Below are positions 25,764-32,143 of a stretch of DNA of 32,143 nt, one piece after another; the first letter of the stretch is position 1, and every line of letters starts with the position of its first letter. This DNA comes from Bacteroidales bacterium (GTDB lineage Bacteria > Bacteroidota > Bacteroidia > Bacteroidales > UBA932): the NCBI GenBank assembly GCA_017502125.1, contig JAFVVN010000006.1:1-32143 (forward strand), read 5' to 3'. Both the position numbers and the translations under genes were made by a program. Below the pieces are notes generated by a model. It had not been told where the DNA came from. It searched no databases and saw only the letters and a list, made by a program, of their open reading frames with translations.

Positions 25764-26013
25764 ATTTTTTAGAGTTTCCCAGAGTATTGTATGTGCTTAA
25801 TATACAGTGATATAAGTATAATACAATCTAACCCGATATACTTACATATTTCAAAATCTGTTTGTAAATCTGTTTGTACTTTTAATACGAACAGGTATGT
25901 CAATACATTGACATCGCAGAAAAGACCAAAGCAGATGCAATGAAAAAGATTGACGATGCTTGGGGAATGTAAGAAAAGTTTAAATTTGCACTATATATAA
26001 TATAAGGTATAGG
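25764..26013. other. AT-rich spacer between att-like site and DUF1016 gene
   Basis: The stretch holds a 12-bp tandem duplication of AATCTGTTTGTA (25855-25866 and 25867-25878), a short open tail (25886-25972) and a -7 box TAAATTTG (25981-25988) 25 bp before the next gene. A TTG lies 18 bp upstream of that box. No intact gene is visible. Confidence 0.6.
25886..25972 (+). pseudogene. Possible integrase C-terminal remnant
   Basis: An open stretch of 28 codons after an in-frame TAA ends YIDIAEKTKADAMKKIDDAW-GM. It has the look of a tyrosine-recombinase C-terminal helix after the catalytic Tyr and lies next to the att-like site, where int genes sit. It is too short to identify with certainty. Confidence 0.25.
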
Positions 26014-27141
26014 ATGGACATGAAGACAACTGAGATCACCGAAATCAACATCAATTCTCTCTTTGAGAAGATTGCTTCTGTAATTGAGGAAGCGAGAAGA
26101 AGAGCATCAACAGCTATCAACCTTTCCGAGGTTTACGCAAAGTTCAACGTCGGTAGATACATTGTGGAAGATGAGCAGGGCGGAAAGGAAAGAGCTGCTT
26201 ACGGAAAGCAAGTCCTTGAGCAACTTTCAAAGAAGATTGAGGAACGCTTCGGTGAAGGATGGTCAGTTGACACATTAAAGCGCTGTCGTAAGTTTTATAG
26301 TATATACTCTACTCCAGCAATTGGGGCAACAGTGTTGCACCAATTGGAAACTAGAGCAGACTTTGTGAATTTGGGCAACACTGTTGCCCAAATTCAAGAG
26401 GCATCTCCAGAACCACACAAGTTTGTCCTCTCATGGTCTCATTACCTTATTCTCATGCGTGTCAAGGATGCCAATGCGCGTAGCTTCTATGAAATAGAAT
26501 GCGCTAAGCAGAATTGGAGCATCCGTTGGCTGCAGCGTCAGGTGAACAGCAGTCTCTACGAACGTCTCGCACTCAGCAAAGACAAAGATAAAGTAATTCG
26601 CATGGCAACAGAAGGTCAGGTAGTTGAGAAGCCTGCAGACATAATCAAGAATCCGATTACTCTTGAGTTCCTGGGATTGAAGCCTGAAGCGGCATATTCA
26701 GAATCAAAACTGGAGAATGCCATTATCAGCAAACTGCAGCAGTTCCTCCTTGAACTTGGAAAGGGATTCCTATTTGAGACCAGACAGAAGCGATTCACAT
26801 TCGAAGAAGAAAACTTCTACGTTGATCTCGTATTCTATAACCGTCTTCTACAATGCTATGTCCTCATAGATCTGAAGATTGACAAACTCACTCATCAGGA
26901 TCTTGGCCAGATGCAGATGTATGTGAACTACTACGACAGACATGTAAGGCGTGAATGGGAGAAACCTACCATCGGAATCCTCCTCTGCAAAGAGAAAAAG
27001 GACGCACTCATCAAACTCACCCTTCCTGAGGATGCAAACATCTACGCTACTGAATACGCTCTTTACCTTCCAGACAAGAAGGAACTCCAAGAGAGACTGC
27101 AACAGTGGATTCTGGAATTTGACAAAGAAGAAGATCTATAA
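26014..27141 (+). CDS. DUF1016 / PDDEXK nuclease-family protein (YhcG-like)
   Basis: The 375-residue protein has the DUF1016 N-terminal domain (ARRRASTAINLSEVYAKFNVGRYIVE, then YGKQVLEQLSKKIEERFGEGWS) and a C-terminal PDDEXK-type nuclease domain (FYVDLVFYNRLLQCYVLIDLK with Asp and Lys of the active site, then LGQMQMYVNYYD). Family members cluster with restriction and mobile-element genes; the cellular role is not firmly known. The linker before LSWSHY is encoded by two 27-bp palindromes (26319-26345 and 26368-26394). It has its own -7 box and a terminator. Confidence 0.88.
   Translation: MDMKTTEITEININSLFEKIASVIEEARRRASTAINLSEVYAKFNVGRYIVEDEQGGKERAAYGKQVLEQLSKKIEERFGEGWSVDTLKRCRKFYSIYSTPAIGATVLHQLETRADFVNLGNTVAQIQEASPEPHKFVLSWSHYLILMRVKDANARSFYEIECAKQNWSIRWLQRQVNSSLYERLALSKDKDKVIRMATEGQVVEKPADIIKNPITLEFLGLKPEAAYSESKLENAIISKLQQFLLELGKGFLFETRQKRFTFEEENFYVDLVFYNRLLQCYVLIDLKIDKLTHQDLGQMQMYVNYYDRHVRREWEKPTIGILLCKEKKDALIKLTLPEDANIYATEYALYLPDKKELQERLQQWILEFDKEEDL
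26319..26394. repeat. Pair of related 27-bp palindromes inside the DUF1016 gene
   Basis: Unit 2 (26368-26394) is a perfect 12-bp inverted repeat around ACT, with arm AATTTGGGCAAC. Unit 1 (26319-26345) is a related imperfect palindrome with arm AATTGGxGCAACA. They are separated by 22 bp and both stay in frame. Confidence 0.85.
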
Positions 27142-27146
27142 ACACT

Positions 27147-27170
27147 ACAGCCACTCCGAAGAGTGGCTGT
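27147..27170 (+). terminator. Hairpin after the DUF1016 gene
   Basis: A perfect 10-bp stem (27147-27156 with 27161-27170) with a CGAA tetraloop lies six bases after the stop. There is no T run, only TATAC, so it may be a 3' stabiliser or a weak terminator. Confidence 0.6.
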
Positions 27171-27192
27171 TATACTATAGGGCTCGAAACCG

Positions 27193-27258
27193 ATGAAGTC
27201 GCTTGAGCGAAGCGAAAGTAATCGACTTGTCGCTTGAGCGAAGCGAAAGAAACTTCAT
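27193..27258. repeat. 66-bp symmetric element with two copies of a 20-bp repeat
   Basis: TCGCTTGAGCGAAGCGAAAG occurs at 27199-27218 and 27230-27249. Each copy can form a CGCTT/AAGCG hairpin. The pair is bounded by ATGAAGT (27193-27199) and its complement ACTTCAT (27252-27258), and AAGTCG/CGACTT (27196-27201, 27223-27228) gives a further inverted pair. Confidence 0.75.
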
Positions 27259-27269
27259 TAGAAAGGGTT

Positions 27270-27536
27270 GTCATCCCTTACGCGAATTCCCACAACACCC
27301 TGACAAACCCATAGCCCTTGTCGAATCAGAAAAGACAGCAATTATCTGCTCAGGACTCATGCCACAATACCTATGGCTCGCCACCGGAGGAAAATCCCAG
27401 CTCTCCCAAGAAAAAATCTCCGCCGCAGAAATAGACATCACAGTCAGCGATATCCTCCTGCGAATACTTACCAGAGATCCACAGCCTGATAAACGACTTC
27501 AACCTCACTCCCGTCACAGAAGAATGGCTCATCTGA
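27270..27536 (+). pseudogene. Remnant of a toprim-type (DUF6371-like) primase gene
   Basis: The translated segment PDKPIALVESEKTAIICSGL followed by LWLATGGKSQL matches the toprim-like core I know from DUF6371 proteins of Bacteroidota mobile elements. The expected downstream part (a DVDG-containing segment) is missing, and the reading continues with EIDITVSDILLRIL. The last portion seems to have moved to another frame that ends EWLI and TGA at 27534. There is no credible start. I read it as a gene with an internal deletion and a frameshift. Confidence 0.6.
27434..27536 (+). repeat. 103-bp remnant repeat, copy 1
   Basis: This end of the primase remnant is repeated at 29083-29185 with the same length and about ten mismatches. 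It marks the left edge of the first cassette unit. Confidence 0.85.
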
Positions 27537-27557
27537 ACTGTCCCACTATCTCGAAAG

Positions 27558-27609
27558 TGTCCCGCTGTCTCGGGTGTCTCGCCCTCGGGACAGCGAGACA
27601 GACGGGACA
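27558..27609. repeat. TGTCTCG inverted repeat, copy 1
   Basis: TGTCCCG-CTGTCTCG (27558-27572) pairs with CGAGACAG-a-CGGGACA (27594-27609) with one bulged base. Related copies lie at 29207-29258 and 30703-30738, always just beyond a lipoprotein terminator. Confidence 0.85.
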
Positions 27610-27616
27610 AATGGGA

Positions 27617-27647
27617 CAAAAAAAGCACACAGCCGAAACTGTGTGCT
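27617..27647 (-). terminator. Terminator of lipoprotein cassette 1
   Basis: AGCACACAG (27624-27632) pairs with CTGTGTGCT (27639-27647). On the minus strand the hairpin ends in seven T. Confidence 0.9.
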
Positions 27648-27674
27648 AATATCATAAATGGTCTGATGCAAATA

Positions 27675-28610
27675 CTACTGCTGCTTAACCCACTTGCCTG
27701 CTTCTGTGATTGCAGGTAACAGATATGCATGACCAATCTCCAGATTTTTGGCATACTTGGAGCCATTATGCTCACCTCTATCCACAGTATAAGTGTAAAC
27801 ATCTGTACCATTAGTCAAATAGAAATGATACTTGTCGTTTGCATCGCTTTTTGTATTAGATGTGTAACCACAAACAATAAAAGACAAGTCACCTCCGGTT
27901 TTCAGGCCTAAAGAATATTTATCTCTGCCGCCCCAAGTGCCAATATGTCCACTACTCTCTGTGAATCTGAATCCATTCTCTTGATGACTTGTTAAAGCAT
28001 ACGAACTTGGTCTTGTTGCACTTGGTGTATAGGTATTATCACCGACAGTCATCTGCCACACTCCATCTTCATTTAAACCCTTTACTGACACCTGCACTTG
28101 TTTTCCCGTAGTATACGGACTGGCATCAAATGTCATTAAAATCTCACCCAAAGTTAATACGTCAGATGCAACCACATACTCACCAAAGCTACTAAGAATT
28201 ACACCTCCGATGTAGGTTGCCAATGTACCTTCACCGTCAAGAGAGATATTCTTACCAGCAGCTACTCTGTAATGAATTGCTGAAAATTTTCCAGATGCCC
28301 CTAACTCAGCTACCAAGGCACTTGAAACTTTTGAAGATGACCATGAAGTTCCATCATAGTTCAAATAAATTATCTTTGAATTATCAGCAAGATAATTACC
28401 GGTAGCTCCAGGCTGACAGAAAATTGCAATCTGATCACCGGCTTCCCAACCAGTCTTTACCGCTTTTGTAGCAGCATCAAATCCACCCTTTCCTGCAACA
28501 TTAAACTCTACATTATATTCCTTTGAAGGAGTAGTAACCTCCTGCTTTGAGCATCCGACAACCACTATGGTCATAGCCACGGTGGCAAAAAGTATAGTTC
28601 TTAATTTCAT
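27675..28610 (-). CDS. Mfa-like fimbrillin-superfamily lipoprotein, cassette 1
   Basis: The 311-residue protein starts with a lipoprotein signal ending in VVVGC (Cys20). The N-terminal part carries the fimbrillin/Mfa-like pattern ATKAVKTGWEAGDQIAIF, and the C-terminal part ends YTVDRGEHNGSKYAKNLEIG. It is a clear paralogue of the cassette 3 product; both share QPGxTGNYxADN, YDGTSW, and FYLTNGTDVYTYTVDRG. The open frame extends 12 codons upstream to 28646, but that overlaps the peptide gene; ATG at 28610 gives a standard signal peptide. It lies 29 bp after the peptide gene. I infer a cell-surface protein; whether it polymerises is unknown. Confidence 0.8.
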   Translation of the reverse strand: MKLRTILFATVAMTIVVVGCSKQEVTTPSKEYNVEFNVAGKGGFDAATKAVKTGWEAGDQIAIFCQPGATGNYLADNSKIIYLNYDGTSWSSSKVSSALVAELGASGKFSAIHYRVAAGKNISLDGEGTLATYIGGVILSSFGEYVVASDVLTLGEILMTFDASPYTTGKQVQVSVKGLNEDGVWQMTVGDNTYTPSATRPSSYALTSHQENGFRFTESSGHIGTWGGRDKYSLGLKTGGDLSFIVCGYTSNTKSDANDKYHFYLTNGTDVYTYTVDRGEHNGSKYAKNLEIGHAYLLPAITEAGKWVKQQ

Positions 28611-28639
28611 TTCCGTAAATTTTAAAAAGTTAGACATAA

Positions 28640-28786
28640 TTACCATTCCTCCTCTGAACCAAAACCGCCATAAACTGGAGTTCCAAAATCAGACTCTGTT
28701 CCAGATGCTGACAAGATCGCCTGCTCCACGATAATCTCTATAGTTTCCATCTGCGGAGACTCATAAACATTCTTTTCAACTTTCAT
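28640..28786 (-). CDS. Small cassette peptide 1 (48 residues)
   Basis: The peptide starts MKVEKNVYESPQMET and contains EIIVEQAILSAS, then FGTPVYGGFGSEEEW at the C-terminus. It has no signal peptide or membrane segment and is acidic. Homologous peptides precede the other two lipoproteins at the same place. The pattern YESPxxExxEIxxEQ followed by a variable Gly/acidic tail resembles small unannotated Bacteroidales proteins; I know of no tested function. A leader-plus-core peptide, a chaperone-like partner of the lipoprotein, or a regulatory peptide are all possible. Confidence 0.75.
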   Translation of the reverse strand: MKVEKNVYESPQMETIEIIVEQAILSASGTESDFGTPVYGGFGSEEEW

Positions 28787-28930
28787 AACATTATATTTTT
28801 TAGGTTAAACTTTGCACACGGCACAATACAACAACAGCCCGTTACCCCAGTAACGAGCCACTAAGCGTGTATTCTATTTCTAATGGATTATTCGACAATG
28901 CAAATGCTATTTCGCTGATAATCAACGAAA

Positions 28931-29051
28931 TACCCCCCCCATTTCAGATTTTGGGGTGAGGCCGTATTTCCACAAAGCATCATCCGTATATCACTTTGAA
29001 CTTCAAAGGTATACAAAAAATTCCATAACATCAAAGTAAATGGGGGGGGTA
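28931..29051. repeat. Inverted repeat flanking the cassette 1 promoter (candidate invertible segment)
   Basis: TACCCCCCCCATTT (28931-28944) and its exact complement AAATGGGGGGGGTA (29038-29051) are 14-bp arms around a 93-bp spacer that contains the whole promoter. Confidence 0.75.
29004..29035 (-). promoter_or_regulatory. Cassette 1 promoter
   Basis: On the minus strand TTTG (29032-29035), 20 bp, then TACCTTTG (29004-29011): a full match to the Bacteroidales consensus. Transcription should begin near 28998. Confidence 0.85.
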
Positions 29052-29082
29052 AATACAGCCTTTTACAATACATTTAAGCCTC

Positions 29083-29185
29083 GACATCACACTCAGCGAC
29101 ATCCTCCAGCGAATACTTACCAGAGATCCACAGCCTGATAAACGACTTCGGCCTCACTCCGGTCACAGGAGAATGGCTCATCTGA
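29083..29185 (+). repeat. 103-bp primase remnant, copy 2
   Basis: About 90% identical to 27434-27536 and ending in the same TGA. It sits directly against the leader of cassette 1 and has no other primase sequence near it, so it was carried here by duplication of the unit. Confidence 0.85.
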
Positions 29186-29206
29186 ACTGTCCCACTGTCT
29201 CGAAAG

Positions 29207-29258
29207 TGTCTCGCTGTCTCGGGTGTCTCGCCCTTGGGACAGCGAGACAGACGGGACA
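29207..29258. repeat. TGTCTCG inverted repeat, copy 2
   Basis: Same arrangement as copy 1, with TGTCTCG-CTGTCTCG on the left and CGAGACAG-a-CGGGACA on the right. Additional CGAGACA units follow to 29275. Confidence 0.8.
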
Positions 29259-29277
29259 AACGAGACACCGAGACAAT

Positions 29278-29305
29278 AAAAAAGCACACAGCCGAAACTG
29301 TGTGC
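29278..29305 (-). terminator. Terminator of lipoprotein cassette 2
   Basis: GCACACAG (29284-29291) pairs with CTGTGTGC (29298-29305) around CCGAAA; on the minus strand it ends in six T. Confidence 0.9.
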
Positions 29306-29340
29306 CTATATCAAATTGATTATTAAAATTCACCAAACGT

Positions 29341-30258
29341 CTATTCAAACTCAACGTTTACTGTGTACATTTTTCCATTAACGATAGTTGTTTCCTTTGT
29401 AAAGGTCTTTCTCTGCACATAACCTCCTGCCTCAATCTGAAAATAATCATCAACATTATATGTTCGTCCACTAACGCCAGCAAAACCATACATGTACACT
29501 GTTGCTGTATTACCAGATATTGTTTGGTAATTCTTTAAAAGCATACTAGTAGAAGAACTTAAATATGTAAAATCATCAAAATAAGTCCAACCAAATTTTG
29601 ATGGATGCTTTGATGTGCCTGATTTGTCAAAACCTCTTACATATATGAAATTCGGAGTCACACCATCAACAGGGAAAGTAAGGTTAAGTTTAATGACGTA
29701 TGTCTGATGTGCAAGAGTTACATCAAATTCAGAACCCGACATAGTAGCTTGACCATGCATCACTGCAACATTCTTCAAATGACTAGGATCATTTAGAACA
29801 TTTGACACATCTGGATGGGAAACCTCAAAGTACGCATTTCCTTTATAAGCTGCATACAGGACTCCGCTTTCTGACTTCCATTTACTTTCAGCAGTGCCTG
29901 ATCCCACTGACAAAGCAGGATATATGACAAAGACTTCATTTGCCCAGGTGTCATTTGTATACGTTCCTGTAAATGTAGCAGATTTACCTGACGAAGTAGC
30001 AGTAAACACATCGTTTGAAAGAAGTTTATTACCTGCATCTACGGCTACAACAGAAACTTTATCTCCCACCTCCCAAGCTGTACGGAGCACATTATCGACA
30101 TCCTCAAAAGTAACCTTTGTATCATCAGATGCGATAGAAACATTAAGGGTCATATCTATAGGATTTGTTTCCTCGTGAGAAACTTTCGGTTCTTCGGTCT
30201 TCTGACAAGAAGCAAGGACTGCACACACAGCAGCTATTAAAGTAATATATCTCTTCAT
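29341..30258 (-). CDS. Fimbrillin-like lipoprotein, cassette 2
   Basis: The 305-residue protein has a lipobox ending in VLASC (Cys18) followed by QKTEE. The N-terminal half carries fimbrillin-like segments DDTKVTFEDVDNVLRTAWEV, then KSATFTGTY; the remainder is beta-rich. It is only distantly similar to the lipoproteins of cassettes 1 and 3 and lacks their shared C-terminal NGTDVYTYTVDRG, so it is a different subfamily in the same slot. The frame could start at 30276, overlapping the peptide stop (TAATG), but ATG at 30258 gives the normal signal peptide. I infer surface exposure. Confidence 0.78.
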   Translation of the reverse strand: MKRYITLIAAVCAVLASCQKTEEPKVSHEETNPIDMTLNVSIASDDTKVTFEDVDNVLRTAWEVGDKVSVVAVDAGNKLLSNDVFTATSSGKSATFTGTYTNDTWANEVFVIYPALSVGSGTAESKWKSESGVLYAAYKGNAYFEVSHPDVSNVLNDPSHLKNVAVMHGQATMSGSEFDVTLAHQTYVIKLNLTFPVDGVTPNFIYVRGFDKSGTSKHPSKFGWTYFDDFTYLSSSTSMLLKNYQTISGNTATVYMYGFAGVSGRTYNVDDYFQIEAGGYVQRKTFTKETTIVNGKMYTVNVEFE

Positions 30259-30275
30259 AATATTAAACCTTAACA

Positions 30276-30407
30276 TTATTCAACATAGGCGAACAAATCA
30301 CCACCATCTTCCATGTCTGGAATACTTGACTGGAGCACAGCCTGCTCCACAATAATCTCCATCGTTTCCACCTTTGGAGACTCATACAAATTCTTTTCTT
30401 CTTTCAT
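30276..30407 (-). CDS. Small cassette peptide 2 (43 residues)
   Basis: The peptide starts MKEEKNLYESPKVETMEI and continues IVEQAVLQSS, matching peptides 1 and 3 through residue 25. After that it diverges (IPDMEDGGDLFAYVE) and lacks FGTPxYGGFG. Its neighbour lipoprotein is likewise the divergent one. Its stop codon overlaps the first possible ATG of the lipoprotein frame. Confidence 0.72.
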   Translation of the reverse strand: MKEEKNLYESPKVETMEIIVEQAVLQSSIPDMEDGGDLFAYVE

Positions 30408-30550
30408 GACTTTATAATTTTTAGGTTAAACTTTCACACGAAACAATACGACAAAAGCCCGCTACATCTGTAACGAGCAACGATGCGTATATTCTATTTC
30501 TAATTGATTAGTCGACGACAATAATGCTATTTCGCTGATAATTAACGAAA

Positions 30551-30672
30551 TACCCCCCCCTATTCAGATTTCGGGGTGAGGCCGTATTTCCACGAAGCAT
30601 CATCCGTATATCACTTTCAACATCAAAGATATACAAAAAATTCCATAACATCAAAGTAAATGGGGGGGGGTA
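30551..30672. repeat. Inverted repeat flanking the cassette 2 promoter (candidate invertible segment)
   Basis: TACCCCCCCCTATT (30551-30564) faces the complement of TACCCCCCCCCATT (30659-30672): 13 of 14 bases match. The G tract here has nine G, against eight in cassette 1. Confidence 0.7.
30624..30655 (-). promoter_or_regulatory. Cassette 2 promoter
   Basis: On the minus strand TTTG (30652-30655), 20 bp, TATCTTTG (30624-30631). Same orientation and spacing as cassette 1. Confidence 0.85.
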
Positions 30673-30702
30673 AATACAGTCTTTTACAATACATTTAAGC
30701 CA

Positions 30703-30738
30703 CTGTCTCGCTGTCTCGCCCTTGAGACAGCGAGACAG
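30703..30738. repeat. TGTCTCG inverted repeat, copy 3
   Basis: A perfect 15-bp inverted repeat, CTGTCTCGCTGTCTC (30703-30717) with its complement (30724-30738), loop GCCCTT. The primase remnant that precedes the other copies is absent here. Confidence 0.9.
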
Positions 30739-30754
30739 ACGGGACAAATGGGAC

Positions 30755-30784
30755 AAAAAAAGCACACAGCCGTGTGCTTTTTTT
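30755..30784 (-). terminator. Terminator of lipoprotein cassette 3 (bidirectional)
   Basis: AAAAAAAGCACAC (30755-30767) pairs with GTGTGCTTTTTTT (30772-30784), 13 bp with loop AGCC. It has a T run on both strands. Confidence 0.92.
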
Positions 30785-30869
30785 AGTTGCTGTATATCGG
30801 ATTATTGATAATCGTGGATCTGGATGGAATTCAGGTAGATGATCTCTGCCTGACCACCACCAGGGCATC

Positions 30870-31829
30870 TCATTTCTGCTTGGTCCACTTGCCAGCCTCA
30901 TTTATTGCCGGTAATACATAAGCATGTCCGATTTCAAGGTTCTTCTCGTACTTTCCATCAGCATACGTGCCTCTGTCAACAGTATAGGTATATACATCCG
31001 TTCCGTTTGTCAGATAGAAATGATATGTTGCGTTTTCTGGCTCGCTTCCTAAATCATCATTCCTCATAAACACAAATGAAATGTCATATCCATTTTGTAC
31101 ACATGCACATTCGCTGTAAGTGGAAAAATTACCACCCCATGTGCCAATAAATCCACTGTTTGTAATAAGCCTCCAAATTCCTGGATAGGTACCTTCGTGA
31201 GCTAATTGATCCTTTGAAGTCACATTATCTACACCTGGGAAATAGTTGCCATTCGCAATGCCCATTGTCCATCCGTCAGAGGCTTGAAGATCTTTCACAG
31301 ACACCTGAAACAGCTGACCTGATACCTGATACTTGTTAGGTTCGAGTGTCATCGCTATTTCGCCAAATGAAATTTTCTCGGCAGATGTTGTATATGCGCT
31401 TTTGCATATAAGTATCTCACCTCCATTGTAGTTTGCAAAGGTCTCATTGTCATTTTTAAGTGAAACGTTATCGCCATTAGTGACTCTATAATGTATTGCC
31501 GTAAAATTGCCATCTGTCCCTAATGCTGTTGCAAGCTCCTGAGATACTGATGACGCAGTCCATGAGGTTCCGTCATATTTAAGATAGACGAGTTTTTCAT
31601 TATCGGCAATGTAGTTGCCTGTACCTCCAGGCTGGCAGAAGATCGCAATCTGATCACCGGCTGCCCAAGTCGTCTTGACTGCCTTCGTTGCCGGACCAAA
31701 ACCATTCTTCTCAGCAACGCTGAACTCTATCTTATAGTCTTTCGATTCCACAGGTGCATCCTGCTTGGCACATCCTGCCGCTGTCATGGCAACTGCCAGA
31801 ACAGTCCAAAGTATATTCTTCATTTTCAT
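30870..31829 (-). CDS. Mfa-like fimbrillin-superfamily lipoprotein, cassette 3
   Basis: The 319-residue protein has a lipobox ending in TAAGC (Cys20). It shares with the cassette 1 product ATKAVKTxWxAGDQIAIF, then QPGxTGNYxADN, SxFIGTWGGNF-like segments, and the C-terminal FYLTNGTDVYTYTVDRG. The two are paralogues with divergent central regions. The frame extends eight codons upstream to 31853, overlapping nothing, but ATG at 31829 aligns with the chosen start of cassette 1 and gives a standard signal. It lies 26 bp after peptide 3. Confidence 0.8.
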   Translation of the reverse strand: MKMKNILWTVLAVAMTAAGCAKQDAPVESKDYKIEFSVAEKNGFGPATKAVKTTWAAGDQIAIFCQPGGTGNYIADNEKLVYLKYDGTSWTASSVSQELATALGTDGNFTAIHYRVTNGDNVSLKNDNETFANYNGGEILICKSAYTTSAEKISFGEIAMTLEPNKYQVSGQLFQVSVKDLQASDGWTMGIANGNYFPGVDNVTSKDQLAHEGTYPGIWRLITNSGFIGTWGGNFSTYSECACVQNGYDISFVFMRNDDLGSEPENATYHFYLTNGTDVYTYTVDRGTYADGKYEKNLEIGHAYVLPAINEAGKWTKQK

Positions 31830-31855
31830 TTCCGTAGATTTTAAGTAAGACATGA

Positions 31856-31996
31856 TTACAATTCCTCTTCTTCTCCGAATCCACCGTATGTCGGTGTTCC
31901 AAAAGTCGGTGTAGATGCTGATAAGATTGCCTGCTCGACAATGATCTCCGTAGTTTCCAACTTAGGAGACTCATACAAATTCTTTTCTACTTTCAT
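31856..31996 (-). CDS. Small cassette peptide 3 (46 residues)
   Basis: The peptide starts MKVEKNLYESPKLETTEI and continues IVEQAILSAS, then FGTPTYGGFGEEEEL. It matches peptide 1 over nearly its full length, with a two-residue gap, and its neighbour lipoprotein is the paralogue of that in cassette 1. No signal peptide, membrane segment or Cys is present. Confidence 0.75.
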   Translation of the reverse strand: MKVEKNLYESPKLETTEIIVEQAILSASTPTFGTPTYGGFGEEEEL

Positions 31997-32143
31997 AACA
32001 TTATATTTTTTAGGTTAAACTTTCACACGAGACAATACGACAAAAGCCCGTTACCCCAGTAACGAGCCACTAAGCGTGTATTCTATTTCTAATGGATTAT
32101 TCGACAACGCAAATGCTATTTCGCTGATAATTAACGAAATACC
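31997..32143 (-). promoter_or_regulatory. Conserved cassette leader, copy 3 (cut by window end)
   Basis: It matches the first half of the other leaders. The hairpin is at 32046-32067 with loop CCCA, and the second hairpin is complete at about 32118-32142. The window ends at the beginning of the expected C tract, so the promoter and inverted arms of this copy are not visible. Confidence 0.85.

Follow-up and report, generated by a model that had tools for sequence, protein, structure and literature searches.

The contig JAFVVN010000006.1 of a Bacteroidales metagenome-assembled genome (MAG; GCA_017502125.1; 78% completeness, 85 contigs) was analyzed over its entire length of 32143 bases, referred to here as the window. 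One end of this contig carries a tandem array of three cassettes, each with a gene for a small peptide and a gene for a lipoprotein. The cassettes stand head to tail, all on the minus strand, and each unit reads from high to low coordinate. In a complete unit, a C tract and a promoter-like site are followed by a leader with a G tract, the peptide gene, the lipoprotein gene (overlapping or nearly touching the peptide gene), a terminator hairpin, and TGTCYCG repeats. The promoter of unit 3 is not visible because the contig ends at 32143. The parts of the array are as follows.

27434..29080, minus strand: unit 1, complete
29042..29049, no strand: C8 tract upstream of the unit 1 promoter (G on the plus strand)
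29004..29035, minus strand: unit 1 promoter by pattern match, TTTG-N20-TACCTTTG
28787..29080, minus strand: unit 1 leader, identical to that of unit 2 at 262/293 aligned bases
28933..28940, no strand: G8 tract in the 5' leader of unit 1
28640..28786, minus strand: peptide 1, 48 residues, YESP...EQAILSAS, tail ...GTPVYGGFGSEEEW
27675..28646, minus strand: lipoprotein 1, 323 residues, lipobox VVGC, family A (Mfa_like_1 at 18 of 27 bits, below the cut-off)
27434..27618, no strand: 3' homology block of unit 1, with TGTCYCG repeats and an apparent broken DUF6371 end (gene assignment weak)
29083..30701, minus strand: unit 2, complete
30662..30670, no strand: C9 tract upstream of the unit 2 promoter
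30624..30655, minus strand: unit 2 promoter by pattern match, TTTG-N20-TATCTTTG
30408..30701, minus strand: unit 2 leader
30553..30560, no strand: G8 tract in the 5' leader of unit 2
30276..30407, minus strand: peptide 2, 43 residues, N-half as in peptide 1, tail ...IPDMEDGGDLFAYVE
29341..30276, minus strand: lipoprotein 2, 311 residues, lipobox LASC, family B (no Pfam match at E 0.1)
29083..29267, no strand: 3' homology block of unit 2, 94% identical to that of unit 1
30703..32143, minus strand: unit 3, cut by the contig end inside its leader
31997..32143, minus strand: unit 3 leader, 3' half only, identical at 141/147 bases to unit 1 and at 129/147 to unit 2
31856..31996, minus strand: peptide 3, 46 residues, tail ...GTPTYGGFGEEEEL
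30870..31853, minus strand: lipoprotein 3, 327 residues, lipobox AAGC, family A (Mfa_like_1 at 25.6 of 27 bits)
30703..30755, no strand: short 3' homology block of unit 3 with the TGTCYCG inverted repeat, 91% identical

A preliminary description of this DNA had claimed three units in the same orientation with sharp limits, and the tandem array was confirmed, with the repeats present at the claimed positions and the units on the minus strand. The 3' block at 27434-27618 recurs at 29083-29267 (94% identity), the leader block at 28798-29049 recurs ungapped at 30418-30669 (87%), a further repeat stands at 28720-28934, 30340-30554, and 31929-32143 (60% and 88% relative to the reference copy), and the TGTCTCG/terminator block is found at 27575, 29224, and 30712. 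The same description had the units sharing promoter, small peptide gene, and 3' end around a varying lipoprotein, which held in part. Two promoters are visible (units 1 and 2), that of unit 3 being cut off; units 1 and 2 share the full 185-bp 3' block, whereas unit 3 has only 53 bp of it (91%); about the first 23 residues of the peptide are conserved, but the tail changes with the lipoprotein; and lipoprotein 2 is of a separate family (25% identical to lipoprotein 1), whereas lipoproteins 1 and 3 are of one family (51% identical over 319 aligned codons). Both promoters match the consensus TTTG-N20-TAnnTTTG, which we take to be of the Bacteroidales type; this loose pattern occurs five times in the window, counting both strands. 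Within the first 24 codons of the peptide gene, differences between units fall mostly at third positions (8/13, 8/12, and 6/10), an excess that fits a translated peptide.

Mosaic structure of the array

Identity between units 1 and 2 is 82 to 94% at first, drops to about 40% inside the peptide gene (near its base 60), and recovers to 92 to 96% at the terminator. Thus, lipoproteins that are only 25% identical stand between flanks that are 89% (leader) and 94% (3' block) identical. The 185-bp 3' block contains no intact gene in either unit, and such a gene-free block, 94% identical around unrelated genes, would be hard to explain without payload exchange. Lipoproteins 1 and 3 differ by 0.72 per synonymous site (dS of about 2.3) and by 0.31 per nonsynonymous site over their 319 codons; the visible leaders of these units are nonetheless identical at 141 of 147 bases. 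Synonymous saturation next to nearly identical leaders therefore suggests that shared flanks surround exchanged payloads. When the unit 1 leader was used as a 291-bp blastn query, unit 2 was matched with an E of 5.5e-106 and the cut unit 3 with an E of 3.2e-60, and chance similarity is excluded because of these values; this genome held no further match at an E of 0.001.

Mosaics of the same kind were found at other loci of the genus. Two loci from different genomes (L009 and L011, in G258 and G080) agree at 94 to 100% of positions per 50-base bin along 1.1 kb, apart from one bin at 86%; this identity extends just beyond the lipoprotein signal peptide and then drops to 46 to 56%. The stretch common to L009 and a third locus, L015, consists of the peptide and signal peptide only, with dissimilar DNA on either side. 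Within single genomes, paired loci share about 350 bp (G375), about 130 bp comprising the leader end and the first part of the peptide (G416), about 450 bp with similarity reappearing later in the body (G068, contig C3), and about 100 to 150 bp (G068, contig C15). A pair from G250 was left out of this evidence, its overlapping stretches having been aligned to themselves. Tandem runs of peptide and lipoprotein genes occur in G068, G375, and G250. Mosaics in the array and elsewhere in the genus thus bear out the earlier claim that conserved control sequence surrounds exchangeable surface-type lipoproteins. At seven of nine related loci (in G192, G258, G080, G360, G352, G416, and G147) the contig ends about 400 bases or less from the block of peptide and signal peptide, as though the assembly ran into several bodies following a single start.

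Peptide tails and lipoprotein families

When 400 sampled genomes of the genus were searched with a profile built from the three peptides (A3; E of 0.01 per genome), 105 proved to have relatives, and at 27 of 29 loci located by the peptide alone, the window excluded, a lipoprotein-type open reading frame (ORF) stood directly downstream, as judged by eye. At the two exceptions, the contig ends (L017) or the frame closes after 17 codons (L027). A second profile, A5, matched 15 peptides in the genome under study and, across the order, peptides in 4 of 195 genomes outside the genus at an E of 0.001, this profile being skewed to the window's genus. Five of six stretches from outside the genus held a YxxP ORF, followed in four of these by a lipoprotein-type ORF. 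When 27 peptides were scanned, NCBIfam gave no match and Pfam gave one match at chance level.

The tail of the peptide varies with the lipoprotein that follows it. Across 49 peptide-lipoprotein pairs, the Mantel correlation with the lipoprotein was 0.75 for the tail and 0.45 for the N-half; after dereplication to 36 pairs, the values against the lipoprotein body were 0.47 and 0.22 (P = 1e-4 in all four cases), with a partial correlation of the tail given the N-half of 0.44. In a further test, the 400 sampled genomes were searched by lipoprotein family alone (E of 1e-8, maximum of five candidates per genome), which found family A in 63 genomes and family B in 132; 29 family A and 30 family B loci, minus three used for training, gave 56 test loci. 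A classifier trained only on the tails of the 49 pairs named the right family at 28 of the 31 loci in which a peptide was found by rule (12 of 14 for family A, with one tie and one wrong; 16 of 17 for family B), the apparently spurious "peptide" of L124 being kept and counted as a miss. The Fisher P value was 1.9e-6 for the 30 loci without the tie and 1.4e-5 with repeated tails removed. The N-half called nearly all loci B (11 of 14 A loci and 17 of 17 B loci; P = 0.08). A typical family B tail reads P-[GD]-[FYI]-x-D-G-G-[DEN]-[LI], and a typical family A tail contains GF or PF, acidic residues, and W. From this pattern, the peptide and lipoprotein may act together. Searches of the literature, with most subscription journals outside them, did not find such a pairing described. 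Payload exchange between shared flanks and this tail rule are the most solid of the new points, and with the rule, peptides can be matched to their lipoproteins from sequence data.

The lipoboxes of the three lipoproteins were identified by eye, and their location at the cell surface is presumptive. None of the three reached the Pfam cut-off for Mfa_like_1. In a comparison of profiles built from separate sets, families A and B matched over 69 N-terminal columns (probability of 95; E of 3.2e-8), and no full-length relation is claimed because the match spans those columns only; another comparison of the two families was dropped, as it was driven by long C-terminal extensions. A sequence search of the PDB gave nothing for the lipoproteins of units 1 to 3 at an E of 1, and a further PDB sequence search gave five marginal matches (best E of 0.016), named PsbP and pantetheinase.

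Two variations on the gene order were also seen. Two consecutive peptide genes precede one lipoprotein gene at L098:1459-1830 and, by eye, in this genome upstream of position 3147 of L060. In three genomes, a short protein encoded upstream of the pairs (L108:417-761, L114:2406-2750, and L115:1430-1822), with a regulator-like gene beside it, looks like Hcp/TssD, presumably the tube protein of the Bacteroidota type VI secretion system; a 70-residue piece of it had no match in Pfam.

Structure and occurrence of the leaders

The leaders of units 1 and 2 fold better than most shuffled sequences (z of -2.2 and -2.3; 6/200 shuffles as good in each case), and by eye one change in the leader hairpin retains pairing (U-A to U-G). 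In the predicted folds, the UAUUUCG strand downstream of the G tract is paired with the subsequent CGAAAUA, and an alternative pairing with an earlier GAAAUAC is conceivable. The window contains only four G or C runs of at least 6, all of them in the leaders of units 1 and 2. The Rfam search gave one match at chance level (E of 0.43).

By the preliminary description, a leader occurring nowhere else would refute its reading, and to the letter this was the outcome: by blastn, the whole leader was confined to this genome and was absent from 60/60 relatives. Among the 400 sampled genomes (two candidates scored in each), nine others had leader matches of just 23 to 46 bases. By eye, 13 leaders at the other peptide loci of this genome were dissimilar to those of the array. 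This removes the idea of a widespread leader but not that of cassettes, because other loci do likewise behind other leaders. The GTDB contig collection contained a 22-base piece of the leader (the G tract plus TATTTCGTTRATTATC) in two further records. In the MAG of Alistipes sp. RGIG1766 (L050:89-265), the G tract with TATTTCGTTGATTATCA lies in a strong hairpin (z of -4.1) that precedes a small, similarly styled ORF (MKKIYYQRPLIEIV..., MKKIYYQRPLIEIVAINNERGFAFSGSILD), which the contig end truncates. In UBA4360 (L051:5160-5181), the motif stands in the reading frame of one gene, at its end, and before another; by eye, the two are acetyltransferase-like and glycosyltransferase-like, respectively. 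The viral_contigs collection had no match for two DNA patterns and no relative of the peptides.

A possible RiPP step

The 81 distinct N-halves follow the pattern YxxPx-[hydrophobic]-E ... E-[GQ] ... S, Y and P being fixed by the selection. A serine stands at positions 18 to 21 in 75 of them, and position P+2 falls within the published set LVIAFY in 31, or in 60 when M and C are added. According to one study (PMC13381572), the discrete recognition elements (RREs) of lasso peptides, which belong to the ribosomally synthesized and posttranslationally modified peptides (RiPPs), recognize [Y/W]xxPx[L/V/I/A/F/Y], and the precursors of linear polyphosphorylated peptides (LPPs), RiPPs of Bacillota, combine YxxP with a phosphorylated Ser. 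The N-halves resemble such RRE-bound leaders. PF05402 (PqqD, with the RRE fold) was found in 83 of 101 genomes of the genus, 42 of the 47 better ones included; among control genomes, 3 of 14 had it. Genes for an HprK-like kinase, a signal-peptidase-like protein, the RRE, and an MsbA-like ABC transporter were adjacent in 15 of 20 genomes, a nonrandom set made up of the ten best-scoring RRE matches and twelve chosen stretches, with two genomes included twice. NTP_transf_5 accompanied three of the 15 full sets, G070 and G081 had three of the four genes, and G000, G035, and G013 had no such set at the RRE. The names of the kinase and protease rest on matches below the curated cut-offs (TIGR04352, E of 2.9e-6; TIGR02228, E of 6e-4). 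The precursor does not lie beside these enzymes: the nearest was at 3.8 kb (G021), and other RRE stretches with a peptide had it at 7 to 9 kb. Among RRE loci picked for nearness, 3 of 4 hold a peptide.

Under a tentative proposal, the N-half of the peptide (YxxP ... Glu ... Ser) would be a leader recognized by the discrete RRE; the HprK-like kinase, signal-peptidase-like protease, and MsbA-like exporter would then make and export the tail, and the exported tail would join its own lipoprotein. By analogy with LPP, a RiPP step for the peptide is conceivable, with odds that we place clearly short of even. Somewhat more doubtful is the fuller scheme that each surface lipoprotein has a private RiPP, with dispersed YxxP precursors, one shared operon of RRE, kinase, protease, and exporter, and a family-specific core tag; core and lipoprotein would be swapped as one payload behind shared promoters, so that the surface protein and the matching modified peptide change together.

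Other RRE loci were also encountered. A different one in G013 (L194:4613-10668) has, by eye, asparagine-synthase-like, sulfotransferase-like, and kinase-like genes and is perhaps a lasso-type cluster. On contig C3 of G081 (L196), 1.5 kb separates two RRE matches; G068 has four.

The 3' blocks and neighboring sequence

A fragment of a DUF6371 gene (PF19898; 27266..27424, plus strand; E of 2.7e-16), covering domain positions 89-138 of 150, lies beside unit 1, just outside the 185-bp block. Genes of this type are annotated on Bacteroidales plasmids, and 11 plasmid records match. The 185-bp block itself reads like the broken remainder of a DUF6371 gene, which is a weak assignment. A 26-residue reading of the block had no tblastn match in plasmids; it aligns near the ends of two intact plasmid proteins, and when these alignments were tested against shuffles, one of four beat most (2/500), the rest being equaled in 34, 37, and 77 of 500. 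A 24-base repeat in two copies (96%), 31 bases apart, lies at 27198-27252 of the window, between this fragment and a YhcG-type nuclease gene adjoining the array, and a 27-base inverted repeat (89%) lies inside the nuclease gene (26319-26394).

Discussion

We propose that the array consists of tandem expression cassettes that exchange two-part payloads by homologous recombination, and we assign this reading a probability of about 0.72. The promoter and structured leader, reaching about 60 bases into the peptide gene, would serve as the upstream homology, and the terminator with the TGTCYCG inverted repeat would serve as the downstream homology. Between them would lie a payload whose two parts move together: the peptide's C-terminal half and, from the matching family, a fimbrillin-like lipoprotein. 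Recombination or gene conversion is the probable swapping agent. The array, its mosaic structure, the match of tail to family, and the recurrence of the pairs in the genus can be read from the sequences themselves.

Several points weigh against this proposal or its parts. Exchange inside one lineage is presumptive. Chromosomal neighbors are inherited together, so some match of tail to lipoprotein is expected without any contact between the products. At 25 of the 56 test loci no peptide was found by rule; when these were read by eye, unblinded, 13 did have a peptide, 12 with a tail of the expected kind and one (L155) without. The lipoproteins are at most distant fimbrillins, the term "fimbrillin-like" being based on Pfam scores below threshold. 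As to the RiPP step, besides the nonrandom choice of the 20 genomes, the genome under study had a lone 88-residue RRE within the 15 kb examined, the rest of it not having been searched for the enzymes. Of the RRE loci chosen without regard to nearness, 18 in number (2 to 3 kb in ten cases and 12 to 17 kb in eight), one had a peptide, with about 0.4 expected, and co-occurrence was not significant (peptide matches in 23/83 RRE-positive versus 3/18 RRE-negative genomes; P = 0.39).

The preliminary description knew of no described system with this layout. In this it overlooked a resemblance to the vmp loci of Borrelia hermsii, but the peptide half and its match to the lipoprotein were indeed not found in the literature. 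As described in PMC6011951, each variable lipoprotein body of B. hermsii is flanked upstream by a short homology extending into the coding sequence and downstream by an extragenic homology with an inverted repeat; the array likewise has homology upstream and downstream of variable bodies, and vmp exchange is its closest working analogue. However, Borrelia has about 60 silent genes feeding one promoter on a linear plasmid, whereas here each complete unit has its own promoter-like site in place of a silent archive with a single expression site, no unit is known to be silent, and the peptide tail moves with the lipoprotein. Type V pilins also begin as surface lipoproteins (PMC12632263, in part), and the array resembles them in its lipoprotein signals and in the weak Mfa_like_1 similarity of units 1 and 3; it differs in that the scores lie below the Pfam cut-off, unit 2 has no match, and a set of anchor, stalk, and tip was not identified, and such a peptide goes unmentioned in the accessible part of that paper. 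The LPP system of Bacillota, according to PMC13381572, comprises a discrete RRE, an HprK-like kinase, an archaeal-type signal peptidase, an NTP transferase, and an MsbA-like transporter. Its YxxP leader, conserved N-half, variable C-half, and enzyme set may have their counterparts in the genus studied here; in contrast, the precursors here are scattered outside the enzyme cluster, each beside a lipoprotein to which its tail is matched. The term "bacteroid" has 0 occurrences in the accessible text of that paper, and a term search of the accessible part of a paper on RiPP clusters in Bacteroidales (PMC10352776) gave no YxxP, fimbri-, or lipoprotein.

Ordinary tandem duplication, with the leaders held by selection on a regulatory RNA while the lipoproteins diverged fast and no exchange took place, would fit the leader folds and the hairpin change that preserves pairing. 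It does not readily account for a gene-free 3' block conserved around unrelated lipoproteins or for the synonymous saturation of lipoproteins 1 and 3, and the leader sequence is not generally required, because other peptide loci of this genome have dissimilar leaders and blastn finds this one in the array only; we therefore consider duplication improbable. The assembly might instead have joined bodies of different strains or loci at the repeated leaders, as the incompleteness and fragmentation of the MAG, the contig end inside a leader, and the contig ends at the seven related loci could suggest. The longest exact repeat between units is 63 bp, however, and the second longest is 47 bp, and therefore short reads can span them; leaders 1 and 2 differ at 31/293 bases, and better assemblies, G068 (99% complete) among them, likewise contain tandem runs of peptide and lipoprotein genes, all of which makes an artefact quite unlikely. 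That the units are integron-like cassettes recombined at attC sites is close to refuted. Each unit does have one gene pair in the same orientation with an inverted repeat at its 3' end, but neither an RYYYAAC nor a GTTRRRY core was present on either strand of the three junction stretches, and the 3' junctions of units 2 and 3 differ.

Antigen variation or adhesin diversification had also been expected of this locus; antigenic or phase variation in time is conjectural, and the promoters could be phase variable, by flipping between inverted C and G tracts or by tract slippage, so that cells express different subsets of units. Both promoters are bracketed by the four G/C runs of at least 6 that the 32 kb contain, tract length differs (C8 versus C9), and the promoter between inverted tracts before a surface protein gene may resemble the invertons of gut bacteria, groups of which have been reported near fimbrillin genes (PMC11892184, in part). 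Yet the repeat is short and not conserved: 14 bp in unit 1 and just 10 bp, mostly the tract itself, in unit 2. Both promoters point in the same direction, each complete unit has its own, and none of six inverted pairs at 26000-32143 is a flipped promoter segment. By eye, neither an invertase nor any other recombinase was seen among the ORFs of the window, of which no whole-window family search was made, nor was there a flipped copy, and in the Alistipes record with the shared motif a tight hairpin is formed by the two tracts, which enclose no promoter. We consider phase-variable promoters an improbable explanation of the array.

If the proposal of exchanged two-part payloads is true, an unannotated class of peptides of 40 to 50 residues gains a testable role. 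The RRE operon would then be a concrete enzyme set linking pilus-like lipoproteins with RiPP biosynthesis, and this uncultured gut-type genus would diversify its surface by exchanging a two-part payload.

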